Of a stretch of 34,551 nt of DNA, positions 2,787 through 34,551 are shown piece after piece. The number at the start of each line of letters is the position of its first letter. Position 1 is the stretch's first letter. Location: the NCBI GenBank assembly GCA_004367505.1, contig SFCB01000230.1, positions 1 to 34,551 of the forward strand. Reading direction: 5' to 3'. The stretch comes from Chloroflexi bacterium OHK40. GTDB lineage: Bacteria > Chloroflexota > Chloroflexia > Chloroflexales > Chloroflexaceae. A model generated the notes under the pieces. That model was not told the origin of the DNA. It searched no databases and saw nothing but the letters and a program-made list of their open reading frames with translations. Position numbers and translations under genes: made by a program.

Positions 2787-3075
2787 CTCGGCACCCCTTC
2801 TGGTCTGACTGGTCGGCTTCAGCAACCTCAGTCTACACCAGTAGGGGCTTTTTGTCCCGCCGAGAAGCCAAATGCTCCTAAGTGGCGTGACGCTCACATC
2901 TCCATCGTTGGAAGATTAGACAGGTTCTTAGGCCTTGACCTTGCGCCAGCGGTTTCAGGACAACGCCAACGAGAACGCAACAAGAGGGTTGGCTGGAGGG
3001 CCAGTTAGAGATGTCGAACGTTGCTCAAGCCCTGAGTCAGGTGGCGCGACTGTAGCGTAGAAAGACGAATGTGTG
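2787..3075. other. Intergenic sequence, probable IS flank
   Basis: No gene is supported. The part next to the transposase fragment (about 2787-2885) includes a run reading GGGACAAAAAGCCCC on the minus strand and is probably the outer end of the same IS. The remainder shows nothing recognisable. Confidence 0.4.
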
Positions 3076-3092
3076 GTACATTGATCATGTAC
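3076..3092. promoter_or_regulatory. Palindromic operator-like site upstream of the alcohol dehydrogenase
   Basis: GTACAT-TGATC-ATGTAC is a perfect 6-bp inverted repeat with a 5-nt centre, 81 nt before the dehydrogenase ATG. Such a compact dyad fits a dimeric repressor or activator site. No regulator gene lies nearby and no convincing -35/-10 pair could be fixed around it. Confidence 0.35.
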
Positions 3093-3120
3093 TCCCTGGC
3101 GATAACGTGACGGGATTGAG

Positions 3121-3144
3121 CATCCGGCAACAGGTGGCCGGATG
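3121..3144 (+). promoter_or_regulatory. Leader hairpin before the alcohol dehydrogenase
   Basis: CATCCGGC-N8-GCCGGATG forms a perfect 8-bp stem 28 nt before the start codon and 16 nt before the GGAGG ribosome-binding site. It may stabilise or regulate the 5' leader; no U-tract follows, so it is not an intrinsic terminator. Confidence 0.35.
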
Positions 3145-3172
3145 CTTGCTGCTGAGTGCAGGAGGTTCAACG

Positions 3173-4270
3173 ATGAAAATCACCGCCGCCGTAACACCAG
3201 GCAAGTCGCAGCCCTTCAAGATCCAGGAGTTGGAACTTGACGAGCCACGCGAGAACGAGGTCCTTGTACGGATCGTGGGTACAGGCGTGTGCCACACCGA
3301 CCTGGTCGTGCGCGACCAGTACTACCCTGTGCCGCTGCCCGCCGTGCTTGGCCACGAGGGTTCAGGGATTGTCGAGCGAGTCGGCGCGGCTGTCACAAAG
3401 GTACAGGCGGGCGATCACGTGGTCCTTTCGTACAATAGCTGCGCAAAGTGCCAGAACTGCAAAGAGGGCCACTACGGCTACTGTAACGAGCTATTCGGCT
3501 ATAACTTTGGCGCGTCGCGGCCCGACGGCTCGCCGACTCTCTCCCACAACGGCGAGGTTGTGCACGGCTCGTTTTTTGGCCAATCGTCGTTCGCTACCTA
3601 TGCTCTGGCATACGAGCGTAACGTCGTCAAAGTACCCAGGAACGCACCGCTGGAACTGCTCGGTCCCCTCGGTTGCGGCCTGCAGACAGGTGCCGGCGCT
3701 GTGATCAACGCGCTGCGCCCGCAGGCTGGCACTTCAATTGCCGTTTTCGGCACCGGCTCGGTAGGCCTGGCGGCAGTGATGGCGGCGCGGGTGGTAGGCT
3801 GTACGACGATTATCGGCGTCGATATCAATCCGCAGCGGCTCGAAATCGCGCGCGAGCTCGGGGCCACCCACACGATCCTTGCCAGCGACCACGATCCGGT
3901 GGCCGAGATCCGCCAGATCACCGGGGATGGCGCGCAGTACTCACTCGAATGCACCTCACTGCCGAAGGTCTTCCGCCAGGCGGTAGACTGTTTACGCCTG
4001 ACGGGCGTGTGCGGTTTGATTGGGGCAGCGCCCCTCGGCACTGAGGCCACCTTTGATATGAATACGATCTTGTTTGGGCGATCCATCCGCGGCATCATCG
4101 AGGGCGACAGCGTGCCCGATCTTTTTATCCCACGGCTCGTCGAGCTGTACATGCAGGGGCGCTTCCCGATCGACAAGCTGGTGAAGTTCTACACGCTCGA
4201 CCAGATCAACCAGGCGGCCGAAGACTCCGAGCGTGGCGACGTACTCAAGCCCGTGATCCGCATGGGCTAG
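3173..4270 (+). CDS. Zinc-dependent NAD(P) alcohol dehydrogenase (MDR superfamily, benzyl/aryl-alcohol type)
   Basis: 365 residues. ATG at 3173 is chosen because GGAGG (3161-3165) precedes it at 7 nt; the longer open frame from 3071 adds non-homologous sequence. Catalytic zinc ligands are Cys40 (GVCHTD), His61-Glu62 (GHEGSG) and Cys in GPLGCGLQTGAG. The structural zinc lobe is CAKCQNCKEGHYGYC with four cysteines. The Rossmann nucleotide-binding loop is GTGSVGLAAV, followed by GVDINPQRL, whose Asp suggests NAD over NADP. The family oxidises primary, often aromatic, alcohols to aldehydes. The acyl-CoA ligase downstream on the same strand suggests a route from alcohol through acid to acyl-CoA, although no aldehyde dehydrogenase is present. 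The last 20 codons are inside a 141-bp tandem duplication. Confidence 0.92.
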   Translation: MKITAAVTPGKSQPFKIQELELDEPRENEVLVRIVGTGVCHTDLVVRDQYYPVPLPAVLGHEGSGIVERVGAAVTKVQAGDHVVLSYNSCAKCQNCKEGHYGYCNELFGYNFGASRPDGSPTLSHNGEVVHGSFFGQSSFATYALAYERNVVKVPRNAPLELLGPLGCGLQTGAGAVINALRPQAGTSIAVFGTGSVGLAAVMAARVVGCTTIIGVDINPQRLEIARELGATHTILASDHDPVAEIRQITGDGAQYSLECTSLPKVFRQAVDCLRLTGVCGLIGAAPLGTEATFDMNTILFGRSIRGIIEGDSVPDLFIPRLVELYMQGRFPIDKLVKFYTLDQINQAAEDSERGDVLKPVIRMG

Positions 4271-4299
4271 TGGCCGACCACACTGATCGTGCGAGGTAA

Positions 4300-4320
4300 A
4301 GACGCCCCATCGGGGCGTCT
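4300..4320 (+). terminator. Terminator-like hairpin after the alcohol dehydrogenase, copy 1
   Basis: AGACGCCCC-ATC-GGGGCGTCT is a perfect 9-bp stem with a 3-nt loop, 29 nt after the stop codon. There is no T-run after it, so it may act with Rho or as an RNA 3'-end stabiliser. The identical hairpin recurs 141 bp downstream. Confidence 0.6.
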
Positions 4321-4440
4321 CAGCGGGATCGCGATCCAGCGACATCACCGTCAGGCGGCCGAAAATTCCGAGCGTGGCGACGTACTCAAGCTCGTGATCC
4401 GCATGGGCTAGTGGCCGACCACACTGATCGTGTGAGGTAA

Positions 4441-4461
4441 AGACGCCCCATCGGGGCGTCT
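4441..4461 (+). terminator. Terminator-like hairpin, duplicated copy 2
   Basis: Exact copy of the hairpin at 4300-4320, carried in the second unit of the tandem duplication. It gives the dehydrogenase transcript two successive hairpins before the acyl-CoA ligase gene. Confidence 0.55.
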
Positions 4462-4576
4462 CAGCGGGATCGCGATCCAGCGACATCACCGTGGCGCCCT
4501 GCTAGCACGCTTCGACCGCAACAGACCTACGGTTCTGAAATGCTGAGCACACCGATCTATCTCGTATTCGAGCAAG

Positions 4577-30948: not shown

Positions 30949-32403
30949 ATGGCTCTTACCCTCCGCCTGACGCTCACGTATCTGCTGGTGACCCTCGCGG
31001 GGGTGCTGCTCCTGGGCGCCGGTTTTGTGGTCCTCGCTGAACGCGAGTTGGCCTCCCAGCGTGAGCGTGAGCTGAGCGCCCAGGCGGAGATCTTCGCCGC
31101 GCTGCTCGGTGAGCTCGCCACAACACCTGCGGCCCTGCGGGCGCTGGCCCCCTCGAGCCTTGGCGCCGATTTGCTCCCATCCGGCACAAGCGCCCGCATC
31201 TTCTCTACCACCGGCGCTCGCCTGGCCGGCGACCCGGATCTCGGCCCTTTCCCGAGCCGCGCCGCCCTGGAGCTTATGCGCCCCCCGCTGCCGCTCCCGG
31301 CTTCCCAAGCGTCGCTGCGCCGCTACGTAGCCGCGCCGATCGGCGGCGCCGATGGTCCTATCGGTGTCCTGGAGCTCTCCCGCGACAGCAGCGACGATCT
31401 GCGGTTCCTCGCCGGCGTGCGTCGCCTGGCTGTCCAGGCCGCCGTGGTGGCCGCCGCCGTTGTTGCGCTCGTCAGCCTGCTGGTGGCCCGCACGATCGCC
31501 GGCCCGATCGTGGCGCTCACCCGGCGCGCCGAGGCCCTCGCGGCCACGCTCGATCCGGGGGCGGCCACGAGTAGTGGCGCGCCTGCGGCCGCGATTGCTA
31601 CGCGCTGGTCTCCGGGCGCCTGGCTCGCGGGGCTCGCCCGCACCCGCGAGCTTGCGGCGCTCGATACAAGCCTCGATCGCCTGAGTAGCGGCCTGCATGC
31701 CTATATCGCCCGCATCGGCGAGTTGGAGCAGTCCCGCTCCCGCTTCTACCGTGGCGTCTCCCACGAGCTGCGCACGCCCCTCACGGCTATCAGCGCCGGG
31801 CTGGAGAACCTCGCCGATCGCGTGCCGGCAGCCCAGCGCCCCGCTCTGCTTACGCTAGAGGTGGAGACGGCCCGTTTGAGCCGCCTGGTGGACGAGCTGA
31901 TCGAGCGCAGCGCTCGCGGCGCCGACGATGGGCGCTTTACGCTCACCAACCGTAGCCCGGTGGATCTCGGCGGGCTGGTTGCCGAGGTGTGCGCGCTGCT
32001 CGAAGGGCGGGCCCGCCGGGCCGGGGTGGATCTGCGCGGCGGCGGCCCATCCCTCAAGGTGGATGGTGACCGCGATCGGCTCAAGCAGGCGCTGCTCAAC
32101 ATGGCCGACAACGCCCTGCGTGTCACGCCGCCGGGCGGCACCGTGCTGATCGCGGCTGCTCGCGCCGGTGCCCTCGCCAGGTTGGCCGTGATGGACGAGG
32201 GCCCCGGTGTGCCCGCCGAGCTGCGCGAGCGGATCTGGGAGCGTGGTGTACGCGGCGGCGATGAAGAGACGGATGGGAGCGCCGGCCTGGGCCTTGCGAT
32301 CACCCGTGAGATCGCCGCGGCCCACGGTGGCCGCGCCTACCTCGATGAGCGCTATGGGCCCGGAGCCCGCTTCGTTATCGAATTGCCGCTACTCGAAGCC
32401 TGA
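30949..32403 (+). CDS. Sensor histidine kinase with HAMP domain, no adjacent regulator
   Basis: 484 residues from ATG at 30949, with no Shine-Dalgarno sequence close by. An N-terminal membrane segment (TYLLVTLAGVLLLGAGFVVL) precedes an extracytoplasmic sensor region of about 130 residues without a recognised fold. A second membrane segment (VVAAAVVALVSLLVA) leads into HAMP (RTIAGPIVALTRRAEALA). The HisKA domain has phospho-acceptor His272 in SHELRTPLTAI. The HATPase domain has the N-box NMADNALRVTP, then DEGPGVP and SAGLGLAITREI. About 45 extra residues rich in Ala sit between HAMP and HisKA. It follows citrate synthase by 70 nt; no response regulator lies in the window near it. Confidence 0.93.
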   Translation: MALTLRLTLTYLLVTLAGVLLLGAGFVVLAERELASQRERELSAQAEIFAALLGELATTPAALRALAPSSLGADLLPSGTSARIFSTTGARLAGDPDLGPFPSRAALELMRPPLPLPASQASLRRYVAAPIGGADGPIGVLELSRDSSDDLRFLAGVRRLAVQAAVVAAAVVALVSLLVARTIAGPIVALTRRAEALAATLDPGAATSSGAPAAAIATRWSPGAWLAGLARTRELAALDTSLDRLSSGLHAYIARIGELEQSRSRFYRGVSHELRTPLTAISAGLENLADRVPAAQRPALLTLEVETARLSRLVDELIERSARGADDGRFTLTNRSPVDLGGLVAEVCALLEGRARRAGVDLRGGGPSLKVDGDRDRLKQALLNMADNALRVTPPGGTVLIAAARAGALARLAVMDEGPGVPAELRERIWERGVRGGDEETDGSAGLGLAITREIAAAHGGRAYLDERYGPGARFVIELPLLEA

Positions 32404-32431: not shown

Positions 32432-32707
32432 ATGACGAGCTCAGACCCTACTCGACGCCGCCGTCGCCAATGGGCGCTCCGCGGCGCGCTCATCCTCGCT
32501 GCTCTCGCCATCCTCCTCGGGACCACCTTCAACGTGCTTGTCGCCGTTGCGATCGGTGAGGCCACCACCGACTCTGGGACCGCCTACTGGGCGTGGCTGC
32601 TACTGCGCTCCGTGGTGCTCTGGGGCGTCGGCGCCCTCCCCTTCGGCGCCATCCTCGGCGTGTTTGCCTCGATGATCTGGCGGGATGACGATGCTGGTCA
32701 GATTTGA
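32432..32707 (+). CDS. Small two-segment membrane protein, unknown function
   Basis: 91 residues from ATG at 32432 (MTSSDPTRRRRRQWALRGAL), 28 nt after the kinase stop, so probably in the same transcript. A basic N-terminus is followed by membrane segment 1 (ALILAALAILLGTTFNVLV) and membrane segment 2 (LLLRSVVLWGVGALPFGAIL). It ends with the acidic tail WRDDDAGQI. The positive-inside rule places the N-terminus in the cytoplasm. I do not recognise a family. It may be an accessory to the kinase. Its stop codon overlaps the -35 box of the tRNA promoter. No ribosome-binding site is obvious. Confidence 0.65.
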   Translation: MTSSDPTRRRRRQWALRGALILAALAILLGTTFNVLVAVAIGEATTDSGTAYWAWLLLRSVVLWGVGALPFGAILGVFASMIWRDDDAGQI

Positions 32708-32745: not shown

Positions 32746-32822
<77 letters not shown>

Positions 32823-33108: not shown

Positions 33109-34551
33109 ATGGCTACGATGAGCCTGCAAGCCGCATACGATCAGGCCCGCAGCTACCTGGAGGCCAATAGGGTCGAGCAGGCGATCGGCGTGGCGCAGCA
33201 TATTCTCGAGCACTTCCCCGAGAACCTGGAGGCGCACCGCATTCTCGGTGAGGCCCACCTCGCCAGCCGCCAGTACGACCAGGCCGAGGCCGCCTTCACG
33301 CGTGTGCTGCTCGCCGATCCGGAGAATATTCCCGCCCACGTCGGCCTCGGCTTCACCTATGAGCGCCAGGGCAAGCTTGATCAGGCGGTCACGGAGCTGG
33401 AGCAGGCGCTCGAGGTGCGCCCCGATATGCCCGAGTTGCGGAGCCACCTGCTGCGCCTCTACACCGATATCTGGGGTGCGGAGGGTGCGACACTGCGCCT
33501 CAGCCGCCCTGGCCTCGCGCGCCTCTACGCCAAGGGCCATATGCTTCCCCAGGCCATCCAGGAGTTCCGCAGCGTGATCGAGGAGCAGCCTGGCCGTTTT
33601 GACGCGCGGGTTGGCCTCGCTGAGGCGCTCTGGCGCGATGGCCAGGAGCAGGCCGCCGTCGAGGTCTGCGAGGAGATTCTTGCCGAGCGCCCCGATGTGC
33701 TGAAGGCGAACCTGCTCCTTGGCTATATTAAGCTCGCCAATAGTGATGTGGGCGGTGAGGTGTACTGGCGCCACGCCCAGCAGCTCGACCCGTATCAGGC
33801 CGTTGCGCGAGCCCTCTTCGAAACGCTCCCCGATCTTCCTGGCCCCGATCTCCAGGTGCCCGCGTGGGATGAGGATGCCTGGGCCGCGCGCCGACAGCGT
33901 GAGGCCGAGGAGCGCCTGGCTGTCGAGGCCGCGCCCGCCGCCGCTCCTGCCGCCGCCGCTCCTGCCGCCGCCGCCGTCGCCGAGGAGGATGATCTTTTCG
34001 GCGCCTCGTGGCTTGATGCCGCCGTGGAGCAGCCGGCCGCGCCTCGGAGCGAGTCAGGTGGCACGACCGGCGATTACGACGATTTTCTCGCCAGCCTTCT
34101 GGCCAGCGACACGACGCCCTCCCTTCCGGCTGAAGAGGGCGCCGCGTTTGACCCAGCCGCCGAGATTACTCCCTTCAGCTTCGACGAGCTTGATTTCGAG
34201 CCCGCCCACTCGCCTGCCGCCACCCGGCCGGTGAGCGTCGATGAAGAAGCACCCGCCGCACCGGCGGCACGTGAGGAGCCGGCGCTGGAGCCGTTCTCGC
34301 TGGCGGACCTGGGGCTGAGCGAGGAGGAGATCGCCGAACTGGAGGCGCCCGCCGCACCGGCGGCACCTGAGGAGCCGGCGCTGGAGCCGTTCTCGCTGGC
34401 GGACCTGGGGCTGAGTGAGGAGGAGATCGCCGAACTGGAGGCGCCCGCCGCACCCGCCGCACCGGCGGCACGCGAGGAGCCAGCGCTGGAGCCGTTCTCG
34501 CTGGCGGACCTGGGGCTGAGCGGGGAGGAGATCACCGAACTGGAGGCACCC
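33109..34551 (+). CDS. TPR-repeat protein with tandem LADLGLSEEEI-type repeats (3' end outside window)
   Basis: At least 481 residues; the frame is open at the window edge. ATG at 33109 follows AGGAGG by 7 nt and a TTGACA/TATACT promoter. Residues 1-230 are TPR-like helical pairs, e.g. ILGEAHLASRQYDQAEAAF and HVGLGFTYERQGKLDQAVTE. An Ala/Pro-rich acidic linker follows, with short motifs such as DDLFGASWLDAA and YDDFLASLLAS. From about residue 389 a unit reads EEPALEPFSLADLGLSEEEI, AELEAPAAPAA and repeats at least three times. No signal peptide or membrane segment is present. TPR domains bind proteins; the repeats look like copies of a short interaction motif on a flexible tail. The function is unknown. 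Confidence 0.9.
   Translation, partial: MATMSLQAAYDQARSYLEANRVEQAIGVAQHILEHFPENLEAHRILGEAHLASRQYDQAEAAFTRVLLADPENIPAHVGLGFTYERQGKLDQAVTELEQALEVRPDMPELRSHLLRLYTDIWGAEGATLRLSRPGLARLYAKGHMLPQAIQEFRSVIEEQPGRFDARVGLAEALWRDGQEQAAVEVCEEILAERPDVLKANLLLGYIKLANSDVGGEVYWRHAQQLDPYQAVARALFETLPDLPGPDLQVPAWDEDAWAARRQREAEERLAVEAAPAAAPAAAAPAAAAVAEEDDLFGASWLDAAVEQPAAPRSESGGTTGDYDDFLASLLASDTTPSLPAEEGAAFDPAAEITPFSFDELDFEPAHSPAATRPVSVDEEAPAAPAAREEPALEPFSLADLGLSEEEIAELEAPAAPAAPEEPALEPFSLADLGLSEEEIAELEAPAAPAAPAAREEPALEPFSLADLGLSGEEITELEAP
34273..34551 (+). repeat. In-frame coding tandem repeat, about 96-105 bp units
   Basis: Units begin at 34273, 34369 and 34474 (periods 96 and 105 bp). They are almost identical at the DNA level; the second is 9 bp longer because of one extra Ala-Pro-Ala triplet (CCCGCCGCA). 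The third is cut by the window edge. Such near-identity shows recent expansion or ongoing gene conversion. Confidence 0.95.

Follow-up and report, generated by a model that had tools for sequence, protein, structure and literature searches.

A TPR protein with arrays of repeated acidic motifs, encoded beside a roadblock/LC7 gene in one order of Chloroflexota

The window, i.e., the whole stretch of 34,551 nucleotides that was analyzed, is contig C162 of a 6.93-Mb assembly of 301 contigs, and position 34551 is the last base of that contig. A large gene, whose product is called here the scaffold, runs into the contig end. Its reading frame is open from either of two possible starts (GTG 33103 or ATG 33109) up to the end of the window, and the position of this start matches that of the orthologues both in the comparison of loci and in the family alignment. 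The features of the gene are collected in Table 1.

Table 1. Features of the scaffold gene within the window.
Feature	Positions	Strand	Basis	Remarks
Scaffold gene, 5′ part (481 codons)	33109..34551	+		Cut by contig end; alternative start GTG 33103
N-terminal TPR domain, about residues 1–240	33109..33828	+	Pfam TPR_19 2e-24, TPR_2 8.1e-20; model; family alignment	
Acidic Ala/Pro-rich linker	33829..34272	+	Sequence and single-sequence model	
Short motif form PFSFDEL	34171..34191	+	Sequence	Degenerate fourth element
Motif copy 1, PFSLADLGLSEEEIAELE	34291..34344	+	Sequence, TRF, copy comparison	
Motif copy 2, PFSLADLGLSEEEIAELE	34387..34440	+	Sequence, TRF, copy comparison	
Motif copy 3, PFSLADLGLSGEEITELE	34492..34545	+	Sequence, TRF, copy comparison	Final copy ahead of contig end

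The unit EEPALEPFSLADLGLSEEEIAELEAP is present in three full copies, with their first bases at 34273, 34369 and 34474, and the third copy has two substitutions. The spacings between units are 96 and 105 nt, which correspond to 32 and 35 residues, the pairwise DNA identities of the 72-nt units are 98.6, 94.4 and 93.1%, and the 96-nt array has a TRF score of 470. An earlier note on this DNA had described a TPR protein with at least three near-identical units of 32–35 residues, a description that is confirmed by Pfam, by TRF and by the 93–99% DNA identity; this same identity agrees with the recent expansion of the array that was also claimed. Since the array is interrupted by the contig end, and the 3′ end of the gene is on another contig (at the edge of contig C278, of length 9066, where it is matched by the C-terminal block of an orthologue), the copy number in the window genome is at least three, with the true total hidden by the contig break. 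No middle part of the gene was found in the window assembly: the mid-domain of an orthologue, used as query, gave no match other than the N-terminal end of an RpoD-type sigma factor (36% identity, E 2.1e-8). Contig C96 was considered as the missing middle and rejected, its end encoding, as judged by eye, a lipoyl-type domain with an Ala/Pro linker.

Assemblies do break within the scaffold gene, as 7 of the 40 orthologue loci fetched run off their contig, and loci L043, L045, L046 and L048 contain runs of N, which were read as X. An origin of the array as an assembly artefact, the doubt that the earlier note had raised against itself, was rejected because three single-contig genomes (G029, G033 and G042) carry motif arrays with 23, 23 and 13 copies, respectively, by a strict pattern, and because in five genomes searched for the motif every significant match is located in this one gene.

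Other elements of the window can be mentioned here. A perfect 15-bp repeat of the TRF tandem type (2.7 copies of CCGCCGCCGCTCCTG, at 33935–33974) encodes an Ala/Pro stretch of the linker, and it may be a further site of gene-length variation. At 4211–4492, a 141-bp unit occurs in two tandem copies (97% matching) that cover the 3′ end of the ORF 3071–4270 and, by eye, a GC-rich terminator-like inverted repeat. Upstream of the scaffold gene there is a tRNA-Pro gene (32746–32822) and, upstream of the latter, a small membrane-protein-like frame (about 32434–32707) that resembles, by eye, an upstream ORF common to eight orthologue loci. The histidine kinase encoded farther upstream (30949–32403, Pfam) was rejected as a partner: by eye, nothing similar was seen among the ORF clusters that at least five loci have in common in the 3 kb preceding the scaffold gene.

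The scaffold is near-universal in its order. With its N-terminal 334 residues as the query, a match was obtained in all 61 genomes of the order (E up to 0.001), and a strong orthologue (E below 1e-40) in 58 of them, the window genome included, the matches in G006, G034 and G052 being only weak or partial. Among the 40 orthologue loci fetched, 33 have a complete 3′ end, and these encode proteins of 813–2150 amino acids with an N-terminal TPR domain, motif arrays and a C-terminal block. The assignment to the TPR proteins is based on TPR_19, TPR_2, TPR_16 and other families above the Pfam cut-off. The NCBIfam TPR models that best match the N-terminal domain, those of MamA and PEP-CTERM PrsT, gave scores far below their cut-offs (65.8 against 200 and 85.4 against 312.2, respectively), which amounts to generic TPR similarity only. 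The combination of repeated short motifs, a predicted-disordered chain and folded end blocks is the architecture of a multivalent condensate scaffold. A search for related loci in contigs of other genomes returned ten loci with distant TPR proteins of other phyla (best-segment identity 22–40%), which were not used. Concerning the literature, no paper on the scaffold protein was found in the open literature that was searched, as judged from listings.

The motif was studied in 41 proteins, i.e., the 40 fetched orthologues plus the window protein. A pattern search yielded 372 long motifs, present in 38 of the 41 proteins, the window protein among them, so that the absence of the motif from orthologues, contemplated in the earlier note, is not what was found. 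The three proteins without the long motif were L079 and L080, with neither the long nor the short form, and the contig-cut L082, with two short forms. The weighted profile of the motif reads E-P-E-[LM]-x-P-F-S-L-x-[DE]-L-G-L-S-x-[ED]-E-I-A-x-L, and the consensus, a putative docking motif, is xPFSLx[DE]LGLSx[ED]EIAxL. Across the 372 copies, the motif is far better conserved than its flanks, a difference partly built in by the search pattern, which requires the F and restricts nine more of the thirteen positions. Conservation is also seen at positions that the pattern leaves free, namely the preceding P (98%), an A following the I (90%) and then an L (83%). Apart from the long motifs, 38 of the 41 proteins, that of the window again included, contain a short form, [LVIM]xPF[S..][LF..][DE..][DE]. 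The linkers themselves are repetitive: in the 31 complete motif-bearing orthologues, 4-mers found three or more times make up a share 6 to 137 times as large as in shuffled linkers, a ratio that is inflated in a few orthologues by runs of X derived from N. When the motif was searched for in other proteins of five genomes, as the earlier note had suggested, matches with E below 0.01 were confined to the scaffold gene; the only two outside matches had E values of 0.07 and 0.7, and the idea of the motif as a general docking signal elsewhere was rejected.

The window protein was modelled with AlphaFold2 from its single sequence, and the model (mean pLDDT 59.6, pTM 0.36) shows local tendency only. 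The block means of pLDDT were above 90 over residues 11–70, 76–88 over residues 71–110, and lower beyond. The linker that precedes the array was mostly unstructured, except for helices near residues 257–276 and 323–334. At each of the three motifs, a GLS turn parted two short helices; the block means of pLDDT there were 67, 66 and 74, and the linkers between the motifs stayed below 50. The amphipathic helix-like motif of the earlier note is therefore helix-prone, but in the model it is a pair of short helices joined by a turn, not a single helix. Its Ala-Pro linkers were borne out, as the motifs sit in Ala/Pro-rich stretches that are probably disordered, judging from the low-confidence model and from composition. 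Concerning the multivalent binding tail proposed there, the region does look multivalent, but it is not a tail, because the arrays lie between the TPR domain and the C-terminal block. The motif also looks like the turn of DNA-binding helix-turn-helix units, but DNA binding by it is unlikely because of the charge of –9 per motif unit. A possible resemblance to a FliM-like CheY-binding motif was considered too, and this reading was dropped in favor of the roadblock link considered next.

A roadblock/LC7 gene was found downstream of the scaffold gene in 30 of the 33 loci with a complete 3′ end. Its start lies 22–165 bases past the scaffold stop in 29 loci, and in L045, where the scaffold frame holds runs of N, it lies 2.8 kb after an early scaffold stop. 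The downstream protein was assigned to roadblock/LC7 by Pfam (PF03259, 63.8 bits against 23), and it scored 17.6 bits against 200 with the MglB model NF052242, which by its name may cover one MglB type. LAMTOR2 was among its weak PDB sequence matches (E about 0.006). The downstream roadblock proteins of the 30 loci are 83–98% identical to that of the window genome, compared with 41–85% for the TPR domain of the scaffold (13 orthologues), which fits a much-used surface. A nucleoside diphosphate kinase (NDK) is also encoded downstream of the scaffold gene, in 32 of the 33 complete loci; it is the most constant neighbor of the scaffold, and it is present at L078 and L080, where the roadblock gene is missing.

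The loci without a downstream roadblock gene were three: L078 (genome G040), L079 (G058) and L080 (G039). The search for the roadblock orthologue in the 61 genomes gave matches with E 2.2e-30 or better in 55 of them (that of G008 at only 51% identity), weak paralogues only in G022, G024 and G031, and no match in G039, G040 and G058. In a genome-wide search of 20 genomes for any Robl_LC7 domain, none was found in G039 and G058 (98 and 92% complete, respectively), one was found in G040, and one to eight in each of the other 17. Among the 33 complete loci, those of G039 and G058 alone have neither the long nor the short motif; their linkers have no repeated 4-mers, they give no match to the sigma-1.1-like domain described below, and their TPR blocks are kept. 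As these two genomes form one lineage, the co-loss of motif and roadblock is perhaps one event. G040, without the roadblock orthologue, yet with three long and four short motifs, has another roadblock gene. In family f2, the roadblock gene adjoins the scaffold gene in four of the five loci, and the proteins have 2–4 long and 4–7 short motifs, the sigma-1.1-like domain being absent. So, within the order, the motif tracks the roadblock gene rather than the sigma-1.1-like domain, on the basis of one loss only.

Concerning small GTPases, an MglA-like homologue was found in 54 of the 61 genomes and was absent from G002, G039, G040, G043, G046, G058 and G059. The three genomes with a complete locus devoid of the roadblock gene (G039, G040 and G058) are all without MglA-like GTPase. 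G002, G043, G046 and G059 (75–96% complete) have the roadblock orthologue and no GTPase match; G022, G024 and G031 (85–97% complete, fragmented) have the GTPase and no strong roadblock match. With the Arf model, matches were obtained in all 10 of the genomes examined and in 12 of the 14 controls, which leaves only short frames as informative: matches in frames of 265 aa or less occurred in 7 of the 10 genomes, none of them in G039, G040 or G058. Within genus g10, the distance between the scaffold gene and an MglA-like GTPase gene carried by the same contig is about 10–14 kb in G009, G021 and G036, about 32 kb in G029 and about 42 kb in G033.

Outside the order, the N-terminal profile (E up to 1e-30) matched 150 genomes of a phylum sample of 400, of which 40 belong to the order and 110 do not. 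Twenty of the outside loci were fetched, and 18 were judged for neighbors, because in L173 and L174 the contig ends at the locus. Of these 18, 8 have a roadblock frame no more than 300 bases downstream (that of L171 being weak, at 16 bits), 13 have NDK at up to 900 bases, and 7 have both. Many of these linkers carry other repeated elements, chiefly PDWL-type tryptophan motifs: L162–L167, L179 and L180 have 13–27 copies of a PDWL/PEWL-type motif by a loose pattern, in a TPR-linker-TPR layout, and PF-type elements were seen in L161, L171 and L172, which are of the same class. L177 has an adjoining roadblock gene and a short linker without repeats, and is a case against strict coupling.

From these observations we propose, as a tentative reading held with less than firm confidence, that the protein is a multivalent scaffold, that its motifs would serve as docking sites for the dimer of the adjacently encoded roadblock protein, and that it may act on a small GTPase. 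It would be a large, probably cytoplasmic protein in which TPR-type folded end blocks enclose a long, acidic, probably disordered middle displaying the docking motifs. Each motif would dock on the dimer of the roadblock protein from the downstream gene, and one scaffold would then gather many such dimers. With still less assurance, the roadblock dimers may regulate an MglA-like small GTPase, with the neighboring NDK helping to supply GTP, and the TPR blocks may anchor the assembly to another partner. Synteny, the high identity among the roadblock proteins, the joint loss in G039 and G058, and the precedents of RomR-MglC and p18 make docking possible rather than probable. Charge lends it partial support, as the roadblock protein has a net charge of –3 with a basic part limited to its last 25 residues (+4), and one motif unit has –9.

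The first of these precedents is the RomR/MglC/MglB module of Myxococcus xanthus, in which a long disordered region is combined with a helix docking a roadblock dimer in a Ras-like GTPase module; MglC, the roadblock dimer, has a positively charged cleft into which the C-terminal helix of RomR docks with a KD of 2.6 nM (PMC12719032). Unlike RomR, the scaffold has TPR blocks, up to 23 motif copies and a sigma-1.1-like domain, and while RomR is described as having a receiver domain (PMC6785124), none was among the Pfam families listed for the scaffold. Because of that receiver domain, it is of interest that in family f3 the scaffold gene is immediately preceded by a small gene that looks, by eye, like one for a response regulator, e.g., L089:11961–12353, in a cluster of five loci. 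The other precedent, p18 of the eukaryotic Ragulator, is not known to have such a repeat array. It is an extended protein whose short helices wrap roadblock dimers (PMC5680233), and it is likened to the scaffold by analogy. MglA- and Rup-type GTPases were placed in Chloroflexi by a 2014 survey (PMC4316618), and gliding in filamentous Chloroflexota figures as an additional reported case in a review (PMC13104615); links of the scaffold to GTPases and to motility are conjectured here.

A different interpretation has the TPR groove as the binding site of the motifs, on either the same scaffold molecule or a neighboring one; a meshwork or condensate would form, to which the product of the roadblock gene would be a separate client. 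Motif arrays between folded ends are typical of condensate scaffolds, and the TPR-linker-TPR layout is kept, by eye and by Pfam, in the complete proteins inspected, including relatives outside the order with another type of motif. However, the TPR blocks are maintained in G039 and G058, where there is no motif for them to bind, and we consider self-association unlikely.

It seems even less likely that the array is mainly a product of slippage, serving as an acidic and flexible spacer whose function depends little on its sequence. The copy number varies from 0 to 23 by the stricter pattern, so the variable copy number claimed in the earlier note holds between species, which were what was compared, rather than strains of one species. 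Copies also turn over: in L051, L054 and L055, of one genus, they are more alike within a gene (means 0.86–0.90) than between species (0.79–0.81), and those of the window gene are, as said, 93–99% identical in DNA. On the other hand, the motif core is kept across families while the linkers change, and L068–L070 keep orthologous copies, with a mean best match of 0.96 and 0.88 between species versus 0.77–0.78 within a gene. For the 17-codon core, the median pN/pS between copies is 0.26; of the 38 genes, 37 stay under 0.5, and only the window gene exceeds it, with 0.72 on very few differences. This favors constraint on the motif copies without proving it, because the pairs are non-independent, because the copies were chosen by a protein pattern, and because gene conversion depresses both pN and pS.

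The sigma-1.1-like domain suggests another interpretation, namely that it contacts RNA polymerase while the arrays recruit transcription or regulatory partners. Sigma70_r1_1 (PF03979) was above the cut-off of 22.5 bits in four of five full-length proteins (28.9, 27.5, 25.9 and 24.9 bits), with no match in L074 or L079. A profile of nine domains run against the PDB retrieved SigA and RpoD chains, with a best E value of 1.6e-4, and all 17 rows with E below 0.01 were sigma factors; in the window genome, as mentioned, the domain of an orthologue matches only the N-terminus of a sigma factor. A profile derived from the order located the domain in 25 of the 33 complete proteins, and in 25 of the 26 outside family f2 and genus g21, the exception being L045, with its long runs of N. 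In the inspected proteins that have the domain, motifs lie on both sides of it, and in the window gene the region of any such domain falls in the assembly gap. Pfam and the PDB profile search thus agree that the scaffold carries a region homologous to region 1.1 of sigma-70 factors, but, unlike in those factors, it lies among motif arrays, and none of sigma regions 2, 3 and 4 was among the Pfam families listed for five full-length proteins (the best 25 for two of them). To our knowledge, a sigma-1.1 domain outside a sigma factor is unusual. Here it may serve to contact RNA polymerase, or it may be an acidic fold put to a new use. Against a transcription-linked scaffold, the profile found the domain in none of the five proteins of family f2 (L074–L078), which keep the motifs, in neither of the two of genus g21 (L079 and L080), and, beyond the order, in none of 20 relatives. 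The lack of regions 2–4 among the families listed points the same way, and we regard this interpretation as improbable. A decayed sigma-1.1 stretch in G058, an impression by eye, was not confirmed by Pfam or by the profile.

The broadest proposal, a Chloroflexota-wide TPR scaffold with roadblock and NDK as a Ragulator analogue, in which lineage-specific aromatic-acidic motif arrays (PFSL..LGLS in this order, PDWL in several other classes) would collect roadblock dimers and MglA-like GTPases, and a captured sigma-1.1 domain would couple it to transcription in this order, is very unlikely to be right as a whole.

The scaffold has a strong orthologue in 58 of the 61 genomes of its order, its TPR domain recurs in 110 further genomes of the phylum sample, and, as far as searched, it is undescribed. 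Its tie to roadblock proteins, the preferred reading, and perhaps to small GTPases, would, if true, be a concrete entry point, and its fast-changing arrays offer a natural series for how valency tunes a scaffold.
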